Shown in pieces: positions 38,377-41,778 of a stretch of DNA of 64,000 nucleotides. The notes below the pieces were generated by a model, which saw nothing but the letters and a program-made list of their open reading frames with translations, searched no databases and was not told the DNA's origin. Both the position numbers and the translations under genes were made by a program. The DNA lies in contig CAMBZE010000002.1 of the NCBI GenBank assembly GCA_945872425.1, positions 1 to 64,000 of the forward strand, given 5' to 3'. The stretch is from Methylotenera oryzisoli (GTDB lineage Bacteria; Pseudomonadota; Gammaproteobacteria; Burkholderiales; Methylophilaceae). Each line of letters opens with the position of its first letter. The first letter of the stretch is position 1.

Positions 38377-39111
38377 ATGGCTAATTTGCGCTTTTTTACA
38401 AACTCGCCTTTGGCATTAAATACATCCGTGCAACTCTCAGATAACGCGGCCGCACACGCTACGCGAACATTACGTTTAAATGTGGGCGATAACGCCATCA
38501 TGTTTAATGGTGATGGCTTTGATTATGAATGCACACTAACCTCTATCAAGAAAAACAATGTAATCGCAACAATCACAAGCGCAACACCAGTAAGCAACGA
38601 ATCTGCTCTAAACATCACTTTGCTACAAGCGATTTCCAGTGGAGATCGCATGGATTTTACTATTCAAAAAGCCGTAGAACTTGGTGTAAAAAACATTCAG
38701 CCGATTACCAGCCAACGCAGCGTGGTAAAACTATCTGCTGAACGCGCTGAAAAACGTACAGAACATTGGCAGAATGTGGCGATTTCCGCATGCGAGCAAT
38801 CAGGTCGCGCAGTCATCCCTAAAGTCTTTCCGCCGCTGTCGCTTGAAAACTGGCTCAGTCAAAATCCAAACAATCATGCAACCCGCATTTTGCTCAATCC
38901 TGTCGGCGCAAAACGCTTAGCAGAAATGCAACAACCGACATCCGCGATTCAGCTACTTATCGGCGCAGAGGGCGGGTTAAGTCAAAGCGAAATTGACCTT
39001 GCAAGCTCACAGGGCTTTCAGTCCATTGTGCTTGGGCCGCGTATCTTGCGCACGGAAACTGCTGCATTAACTGCGATTTCAGCCATGCAATGCCTATGGG
39101 GGGATTTTTAA
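38377..39111 (+). CDS. rsmE: 16S rRNA (uracil(1498)-N(3))-methyltransferase
   Basis: RSVVKLSAERAEKRTEHWQNVAISACEQSGR, IGAEGGLSQSEIDLA, LGPRILRTETAAL. Confidence 0.95.
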   Translation: MANLRFFTNSPLALNTSVQLSDNAAAHATRTLRLNVGDNAIMFNGDGFDYECTLTSIKKNNVIATITSATPVSNESALNITLLQAISSGDRMDFTIQKAVELGVKNIQPITSQRSVVKLSAERAEKRTEHWQNVAISACEQSGRAVIPKVFPPLSLENWLSQNPNNHATRILLNPVGAKRLAEMQQPTSAIQLLIGAEGGLSQSEIDLASSQGFQSIVLGPRILRTETAALTAISAMQCLWGDF

Positions 39112-39156: not shown

Positions 39157-39175
39157 ATTTGTATTTATTACAAAT
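39157..39175. promoter_or_regulatory. Putative operator O1 upstream of the XRE-argA fusion
   Basis: Inverted repeat ATTTGTA-TTTAT-TACAAAT overlapping candidate -35 (TTGTAT, 39159-39164). Confidence 0.6.
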
Positions 39176-39187
39176 AAGCCCTATAAT
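39159..39187 (+). promoter_or_regulatory. Putative sigma-70 promoter of the XRE-argA fusion
   Basis: TTGTAT - 17 bp - TATAAT. Confidence 0.65.
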
Positions 39188-39205
39188 AATGTAAATATTA
39201 CAAAT
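39187..39205. promoter_or_regulatory. Putative operator O2 upstream of the XRE-argA fusion
   Basis: TAATGTAAATATTACAAAT with core dyad TGTAA-ATA-TTACA; shares TATTACAAATA with O1 at an exact 30-bp offset. Confidence 0.6.
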
Positions 39206-39220
39206 ACAGGCGCCTACGCT

Positions 39221-40831
39221 ATGCCTCTCGGCAACCACATTCGCAATTTACGTAAATCTCGCAACCTCACCTTGCAGCAGCTTTCCTATCTTGTGGATGC
39301 CGATGCGGGAAATTTATCCCGTATCGAACGTGGTGAATTGGGCGTTTCAGAAACGATGCTGCGTAAAATTGCTGCAGCGCTGAATACAACACCCGCCAAC
39401 CTTTATGCTGAAAGTGATGCCTCCGAAGCTCAGTTAGCGGTTGATGAGCGACGTTCAGCCTACATTACCCCGCAGACCCAGGTGTTAAATAAAGCAGGCA
39501 CCACTAATGCCAAAGACTTTGTGTATTGGTTTCGCTCTGCTACGCCTTACATTCATGCGTTTGGTGGACGCACGTTTGTCATTGCTTTCGGCGGCGAGGT
39601 GGTTAATGAGCAGCAGTTCATCGCGCTATCGCACGACCTCAACCTGCTTGCCAGCCTTGAGGTCAGGCTAGTGTTGGTGCATGGTGCACGTCCGCAAATT
39701 GAGCAGCGCTTAAAACGAGACAAACTTACCCCCATATTTCATAACGGCTTACGTGTCACCAATGATGAAGCGATGGAGGCGGTAAAAGAAGCAAACGGCG
39801 CAGTGCGCGTTGAAATTGAAGCTCTGCTTTCAATGGGGATTGCCAACTCACCCATGGCAGGCGCAGACATTCGCGTGGCAAGTGGCAACTTTGTCACCGC
39901 CAAGCCACTGGGGGTGCGTGACGGCGTAGATTTGCAGCACACCGGTGAAGTGCGCAAAGTGGATGCTGTCGGTATTCAAAAACGTTTGGATGACAATGAG
40001 ATGGTGCTGCTCTCACCGCTCGGCTACTCTCCCACTGGCGAAGCATTTAACTTAAGTTTGGAAGATGTTGCGGTGAGCACTGCCATTGCATTGGATGCGG
40101 ATAAACTCATCTTTTTAATGGATTCTGAAGGTGTGCATAACTTACGTGGTGAGTTACTGCGAGAGATGACCGCCGAAAAAGCCAAGAACCTGCTACGCAA
40201 TGTACGTGAAACTGAGCAGGCCATCAATATTTCCGAGGACGTTACTTATTACCTCCCTGCCGCTGTGCGCGCGTGTGAGTACGGCGTGGCGCGCACCCAC
40301 CTGATTAGCCGCCATATTGATGGCGCAATTATTCAAGAGTTATTCACATTGGATGGCATAGGCACCATGGTGACCGAGTTAAATTTAGAAAGTATGCGTC
40401 AGGCTGACATTGATGACGTCGGCGGCATATTAAAACTGATTGAACCGCTTGAAAATGAAGGTTTTTTGGTACGCCGCGGGCGCGAGCACATTGAGATGGA
40501 AATTAACCATTTTTATGTGATGGAGCATGACAATCGCATCATTGGCTGTGCGGCACTATACCCGTTTGTTACTGATAAAACCGCCGAATTTGCATGCCTA
40601 GCAATCGACCCGGCCTATCGCGGTGCGGGACGTGGCGATAAGCTGTTCGGTTACTGTGTAGCACAAGCCAAAGCACAGGGCTACAGAAGTCTGTTTTGCC
40701 TGACGACAAGGACAGAGCATTGGTTTTTAGAGCGTGGCTTTGTTGAGCAGAGTGTAGAAAAACTGCCAGCAGAAAAACAAAAACTTTATAATTTTCAGCG
40801 CAAATCCAAGGTGTTTAGCAAAACATTGTAA
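39221..40831 (+). CDS. argA: N-acetylglutamate synthase (AAK + GNAT) with N-terminal XRE/Cro-type HTH domain
   Basis: Residues ~4-66 GNHIRNLRKSRNLTLQQLSYLVDADAGNLSRIERGELGVSETMLRKIAAALNTTPANLY; from ~98 KDFVYWFRSATPYIHAFGGRTFVIAFGGEVV... through the GNAT domain FLVRRGREHIEMEINHFYVMEHDNRIIGCAALYPF. Confidence 0.93.
   Translation: MPLGNHIRNLRKSRNLTLQQLSYLVDADAGNLSRIERGELGVSETMLRKIAAALNTTPANLYAESDASEAQLAVDERRSAYITPQTQVLNKAGTTNAKDFVYWFRSATPYIHAFGGRTFVIAFGGEVVNEQQFIALSHDLNLLASLEVRLVLVHGARPQIEQRLKRDKLTPIFHNGLRVTNDEAMEAVKEANGAVRVEIEALLSMGIANSPMAGADIRVASGNFVTAKPLGVRDGVDLQHTGEVRKVDAVGIQKRLDDNEMVLLSPLGYSPTGEAFNLSLEDVAVSTAIALDADKLIFLMDSEGVHNLRGELLREMTAEKAKNLLRNVRETEQAINISEDVTYYLPAAVRACEYGVARTHLISRHIDGAIIQELFTLDGIGTMVTELNLESMRQADIDDVGGILKLIEPLENEGFLVRRGREHIEMEINHFYVMEHDNRIIGCAALYPFVTDKTAEFACLAIDPAYRGAGRGDKLFGYCVAQAKAQGYRSLFCLTTRTEHWFLERGFVEQSVEKLPAEKQKLYNFQRKSKVFSKTL

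Positions 40832-40866: not shown

Positions 40867-41778
<912 letters not shown>

Follow-up and report, generated by a model that had tools for sequence, protein, structure and literature searches.

The window, i.e., the whole 64,000-nt stretch of Methylotenera oryzisoli DNA that was analysed, contains a gene in which an XRE helix-turn-helix domain is fused to the N-terminus of an N-acetylglutamate synthase (NAGS, ArgA), with rsmE upstream and argB downstream (Table 1). The initial annotation had described this gene as an XRE-argA fusion and had placed two related dyads, here called O1 and O2, around its promoter. The fusion is real: a single open reading frame matches the argA equivalog model of NCBIfam (PRK05279; 690 bits against a cut-off of 344) over aa 95-536, and its N-terminal part exceeds the Pfam cut-offs for HTH_31 (36.7 vs 27 bits) and HTH_3 (29.2 vs 23 bits). 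The window also holds argJ, encoding an ornithine acetyltransferase (PF01960; 11245-12396, - strand), and ArgA may, therefore, be mainly anaplerotic in a cyclic pathway.

Table 1. Genes, protein domains and promoter elements at the XRE-argA locus (positions in the window; aa, residues of the fusion protein).
Feature	Position	Strand	Basis and remarks
rsmE (16S rRNA methyltransferase)	38377..39111	+	NCBIfam; upstream neighbour
Operator O1, ATTTGTA-TTTAT-TACAAAT	39157..39175	.	Perfect 7+7 dyad; presumed -35 in left half
Presumed -35, TTGTAT	39159..39164	+	Inside O1; 17-bp spacer to -10; conserved as part of O1
-10, TATAAT	39182..39187	+	Bases 1, 2 and last 96-98% conserved (48 orthologs)
Operator O2, TAATGTAAATATTACAAAT	39187..39205	.	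Dyad perfect only in core TGTA-N5-TACA; overlaps end of -10 and presumed start site; conserved at +29 to +44, counted from O1
XRE-ArgA fusion gene, 536 aa	39221..40831	+	ORF; Pfam HTH_31, AA_kinase and GNAT
XRE helix-turn-helix domain, aa 1-62	39221..39406	+	Pfam; recognition segment DAGNLSRIERGELG, aa 28-41
Disordered linker, about aa 69-96	39425..39508	+	pLDDT <50; length varies among orthologs
Kinked N-terminal helix of kinase-fold domain, aa 97-114	39509..39562	+	Model helices 97-106 and 108-114
Amino-acid-kinase-fold domain, aa 118-362	39572..40306	+	Pfam AA_kinase
Arginine-site motif ELFTLDGIGT, aa 373-382	40337..40366	+	Motif definition from PMC4490483
GNAT acetyltransferase domain, aa 416-509	40466..40747	+	Pfam
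argB (acetylglutamate kinase)	40894..41778	+	NCBIfam argB; 62 nt downstream of fusion gene

The AlphaFold model of the fusion protein (mean pLDDT 81.5) contains a confident XRE bundle (helices 2-13, 18-25, 29-36, 44-53 and 58-72, with pLDDT about 85-90), followed by the linker (disordered over aa 69-99 in the model) and by a kinked helix that leads into the kinase fold. Its closest full-length match by rmsd in the PDB is the arginine-bound NAGS of N. gonorrhoeae (3D2P), and the kinked helix is the counterpart of the element of that enzyme that moves upon arginine binding (PMC4490483). Glu353, the proposed general base of N. gonorrhoeae NAGS, maps to E456, which is invariant in the ortholog alignments, and the general acid Ser392 maps to an equally invariant T495, a conservative change. 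The arginine-site motif E-(L/I)-(F/M)-(T/S)-XX-G-X-G-T is present in 103 of 104 full-length orthologs, and the key arginine-site lysine K295 (40103-40105) as well as E373 are invariant in the alignments. With the arginine site and the main catalytic residues conserved, the sensor is probably the enzyme itself, in a form that still has its activity. Sequence and model thus reveal one feature of a trigger enzyme, an active-looking enzyme domain joined to a DNA-binding domain; the other, metabolite-dependent control of transcription, is a prediction for XRE-ArgA.

The fusion appears to be a family trait. The gene was found in 155 of 160 Methylophilaceae genomes, covering all 24 genera, and the Methylophilaceae genes that were read out carry the XRE domain. 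Among the matches listed for 250 genomes sampled across the order, only those from Methylophilaceae include this domain; matches from other families generally begin near residue 90-100, with a few starting earlier, some of them across a stop codon. No description of an XRE-NAGS fusion was encountered in the open-access literature searched.

Re-reading of the sequence upstream of the fusion gene located both dyads where they had been annotated, 30 bp apart from start to start, with the shared TATTACAAATA at 39166 and 39196. The pattern TTTGTA-N5-TACAAA has a single exact match in the 1.49 Mb genome, i.e., O1, and the 16-mer TGTANNTATTACAAAT has three exact copies, namely O1, O2 and one within the coding sequence of metW. 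The latter, TGTAAATATTACAAAT (G000:C5:38754-38769; L006 about 2255-2270), lies in the first metW codons at the metX-metW junction and is probably there by chance. The pairing of O1 and O2 itself is beyond chance: when the 110 nt ahead of the fusion gene were shuffled 3000 times with dinucleotides preserved, no shuffle reached the observed pair score.

Phylogenetic footprinting, which the initial annotation had suggested as a check, was carried out and indicates that the two dyads, the 30 bp between their starts and the -10 between them are conserved across the Methylophilaceae. The best dyad pair at 29-31 bp was significant for most of the 123 distinct regions upstream of fused genes (109 at p<=0.05, 82 at p<=0.01), and when spacings from 20 to 44 bp were searched, 30 bp was chosen in 43 of 64 loci. 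Upstream of unfused argA genes of other families the pair was significant in only 1 of 24 cases (mononucleotide shuffles), a contrast that is supportive but not matched, since the unfused genomes differ in base composition. In some reduced OM43-like genomes (L203, L206, L213 and L215) the XRE head has diverged and no O1/O2 pair stands out; one of these (L206) has a different, larger inverted repeat ahead of the start codon.

In the candidate promoter, TTGTAT and TATAAT separated by 17 bp, the -10 is present and conserved, but the -35 is weak by consensus, matching TTGACA at three of six positions; consequently, the consensus promoter scan did not list it, and what supports it is the conservation of the left half of O1. 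In the 48 aligned loci of the Leu40 class (see below), conservation peaks at O1, at O2 and at a TATWWT (O1+24 to +29), and little is conserved further upstream. By these peaks the -35 is covered by O1, while O2 takes in the tail of the -10 as well as the presumed transcription start (~39194-39195, from the dyad/-10 footprint). With O1 on the -35 and the spacer, and O2 on both the -10 end and the presumed +1, both sites should, by their geometry, block RNA polymerase.

This geometry also bears on what binding would bring about. The XRE domain might bind O1 and O2 but mainly activate, or behave as a switch like that of the controller (C) proteins of restriction-modification systems, in which one dyad activates and the other represses. 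Such proteins are described as forming concentration-dependent switches that both activate and repress; one of them, C.AhdI, is what the XRE domain matches best by sequence in the PDB, and a weak -35 would suit an activator. However, O1 occupies the -35 and the spacer and not a position ahead of the -35, and O2 sits on the -10 end and the presumed +1. We, therefore, regard activation or switching as very unlikely and repression as the highly probable outcome of binding. O1 and O2 together also form an inverted repeat, with 16-nt arms (39157-39172 and 39190-39205) that are 81% complementary, which might point to a function at the RNA level. Because the conserved -10 sits between the arms, O1 would not be transcribed, and an O1-O2 RNA hairpin was rejected on this ground; moreover, each site is itself a dyad, as is typical of protein operators, which makes an RNA-level role hardly credible.

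The identity of the DNA-binding protein is addressed by the variation within the family. Residue 40 of the fusion protein (ERGE-L-G vs ERGx-Q-G), together with residue 29, splits the Methylophilaceae into two classes, and each has its own operator: TGTA-N5-TACA for Leu40-type heads and TGCR-N5-YGCA for Gln40-type heads. In the 71 genomes with Leu40 heads, 209 half-sites are TGTA and 41 are TGC-, and in the 46 genomes with Gln40 heads the respective numbers are 9 and 112. Methylophilus, which is nested in the Leu40 clade, combines a change of Gly30 to Ser with an altered operator in which the TTTGCA left halves are kept while the right halves have decayed, and may thus have a different binding mode. 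In L047-L050, L052, L069 and L079 of this genus the TTTGCA left half-sites remain 30 bp apart. On a tree built from the ArgA part only there are about three Leu/Gln changes and about six changes of operator class, resulting in 2-3 independent pairs; long branches make the deep position of the reduced OM43-like genomes unreliable. With about 2-3 independent switches a phylogenetic sign test of the covariation could attain no significance. The covariation is, consequently, strong but not decisive: its direction is clear, and its statistical weight is limited by phylogeny. The co-occurrence of fusion and dyads, and the joint change of half-sites and HTH residues, lend support to the idea that the XRE domain encoded immediately downstream is the ligand of the dyads.

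The initial annotation had also proposed a scan for operators upstream of other arginine genes. This was negative: in the genome from which the window derives, no 11/12 or 12/12 match occurs at the argC, argD-argF-argG, argH, argJ and carA loci, and the 10/12 matches that exist at the argD locus lie away from the argD start. Across 41 genomes of the genus, perfect TTTGTA-N5-TACAAA sites were no commoner than matches of the reversed control, in scans that weak or asymmetric additional sites would escape. An arginine regulon was, therefore, rejected, and the result points to autorepression of argA. For the Gln40-class pattern TTTGCR-N5-YGCAAA, more matches than in the reversed control were obtained in 14 genomes, but most of the readable loci (roughly one per genome) lie within coding sequence and these sites were rejected as additional targets. 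The sequence data thus favour a circuit that looks like single-target autorepression, acting on argA and, if co-transcribed, argB. The latter is a probable co-target; an argB-like motif occurs downstream in 52 of 57 orthologous loci.

ArgR, the usual arginine repressor, has been described as conserved in gammaproteobacteria and absent in other classes (PMC5343134). Its domain (PF01316) gave no match above cut-off in 100 Methylophilaceae genomes, nor in the genome of the window, while the same profile detected it in 9 of 14 control genomes, including E. coli and B. subtilis. PF01316 is not among the Pfam matches of XRE-ArgA either, and the two proteins are unrelated, even though both presumably do the same job, i.e., arginine-responsive repression of arg genes. 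ArgR controls many of these genes, whereas the XRE-ArgA circuit appears limited to argA(-argB). In the Methylophilaceae, XRE-ArgA autorepression probably replaces the usual arginine repressor.

These observations also help to judge whether O1 and O2 could be the operators of a separately encoded regulator, with the XRE domain of ArgA serving another role. Regulators of a pathway commonly act in trans, TGTA-N5-TACA has the generic form of an XRE-like dyad, and the link between the XRE domain and the dyads is one that we infer. Nevertheless, the pair accompanies the fusion and shows no enrichment ahead of unfused argA, the operator class shifts with residues of ArgA's own HTH, and neither the dispersed set of sites expected of a trans-acting regulator nor an ArgR was found. 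A separate regulator is, therefore, unlikely, and binding of O1 and O2 by the XRE domain of ArgA is, judging from these patterns, very probable.

We thus propose, with a probability of roughly 75%, that XRE-ArgA is an autoregulatory trigger enzyme that represses argA via O1 and O2. The repressor-operator interpretation of the initial annotation gains support from the conservation of the pair in orthologs and from its co-occurrence and covariation with the HTH of the fusion. In the proposed mechanism, dimers of the N-terminal XRE domain of this N-acetylglutamate synthase would bind O1, over the -35, and O2, at the end of the -10 and +1, and would thereby occlude RNA polymerase, so that argA, and argB where it is co-transcribed, would be repressed. 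The 30 bp between the operators correspond to about 2.9 helical turns; both sites may be used cooperatively, and the odds that one oligomer contacts both operators seem about even.

According to a review (PMC4490483), the N-terminal helix of N. gonorrhoeae NAGS shifts and the hexamer changes shape when arginine binds. In XRE-ArgA the DNA-binding domain is tethered just ahead of the corresponding helix, which would provide a possible route from arginine to DNA binding. Since occupancy by arginine moves this helix, arginine in the kinase-fold domain probably strengthens DNA binding, and we consider it reasonably likely to be the co-repressor. Autorepression might instead be real but respond to another effector, such as glutamate, acetyl-CoA or N-acetylglutamate, or serve constitutive control of the ArgA level. 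XRE autorepressors often require no ligand, and the long disordered linker could make the coupling between the arginine site and the head weak. On the other hand, the arginine site is conserved, the head is attached beside the arginine-moved helix (PMC4490483), and no ArgR was found that could provide end-product control; an effector other than arginine is, therefore, possible but doubtful. A bolder reading, which we regard as somewhat less likely than not, is that a hexameric NAGS, the enzyme of the first step, would itself be the arginine repressor of the Methylophilaceae: one and the same arginine site would inhibit catalysis and drive XRE dimers onto two helically phased operators (three in one genus), so that feedback inhibition and repression of the gene would have one sensor in common, with no need for ArgR.

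The design of XRE-ArgA most resembles that of BzdR/BoxR, regulators of Azoarcus and other Betaproteobacteria that are likewise repressors with an N-terminal XRE domain, a linker and a C-terminal sensor with an enzyme fold, in their case shikimate-kinase-like. The best NCBIfam match of the XRE domain is the model for this type of regulator. PRK08154 reaches 30.8 bits (cut-off 204) and covers the XRE part only; the shikimate-kinase-like domain is absent, and XRE-ArgA is not a member of this group because its sensor domain is ArgA. Members of BzdR/BoxR bind TGCA repeats (PMC6449761), and TGCA is the half-site of the Gln40 operator class. As proposed here for XRE-ArgA, several repeats are bound, possibly cooperatively by several dimers (PMC3602430, PMC6449761). 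The repeats are spaced 1, 6 or 15 nt apart, in contrast to the 5-nt spacer of the XRE-ArgA dyads, and the operons controlled are catabolic, whereas the only XRE-ArgA target found is its own biosynthetic gene. Furthermore, BzdR uses its enzyme fold to sense benzoyl-CoA, and this fold is proposed to be no longer catalytically active (PMC3602430, PMC6449761), whereas the enzyme of XRE-ArgA looks active.

In PutA, NadR and BirA of E. coli, too, a DNA-binding domain is joined to a metabolic enzyme and controls the pathway to which that enzyme belongs, and PutA is a single-target trigger enzyme (PMC8249747). None of these belongs to the arginine pathway; XRE-ArgA catalyses the first step of it and carries the end-product feedback site. 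N. gonorrhoeae ArgA (PDB 2R8V/3D2P), the best PDB match in both sequence and fold, shares the kinase-fold and GNAT domains and the arginine-site motif but has no DNA-binding domain. C.AhdI and C.Esp1396I are XRE regulators whose binding sites are operator dyads of their own system, as is proposed for XRE-ArgA; they are small, free-standing proteins that have no enzyme domain and are not known to sense a metabolite.

If the proposal is correct, one protein would be enzyme, allosteric sensor and repressor at the entry to arginine synthesis in a family whose sampled genomes yielded no ArgR. It would add a case from arginine biosynthesis to the few known trigger enzymes, one whose enzyme domain, in contrast to that of BzdR, looks intact. 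The two HTH classes, each with its matching operator class, would represent a natural set for studying repressor-operator co-evolution, and the operator reading would account for a recurring non-coding element in Methylophilaceae genomes.

Two minor observations concern additional dyads. In one genus a third dyad is located 31-32 bp upstream of O1 (L148, L159, L160, L193, L194, L220 and L221); several of these are TGCGTTTAACGCA, and they overlap the end or stop region of rsmE. A third operator as a general feature was rejected, since 7 of the 9 matches come from this genus and two control windows gave 8; the third dyad would be in keeping with a hexamer that carries three XRE dimers, yet it is restricted to the one genus. 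In the genome of the window, the short gap between trpF and trpB (G000:C3:18121-18137; L081) contains a dyad with one mismatch, TATGTAGTGATTACAAA, followed by a near repeat, GTAGTGGTTACAA.
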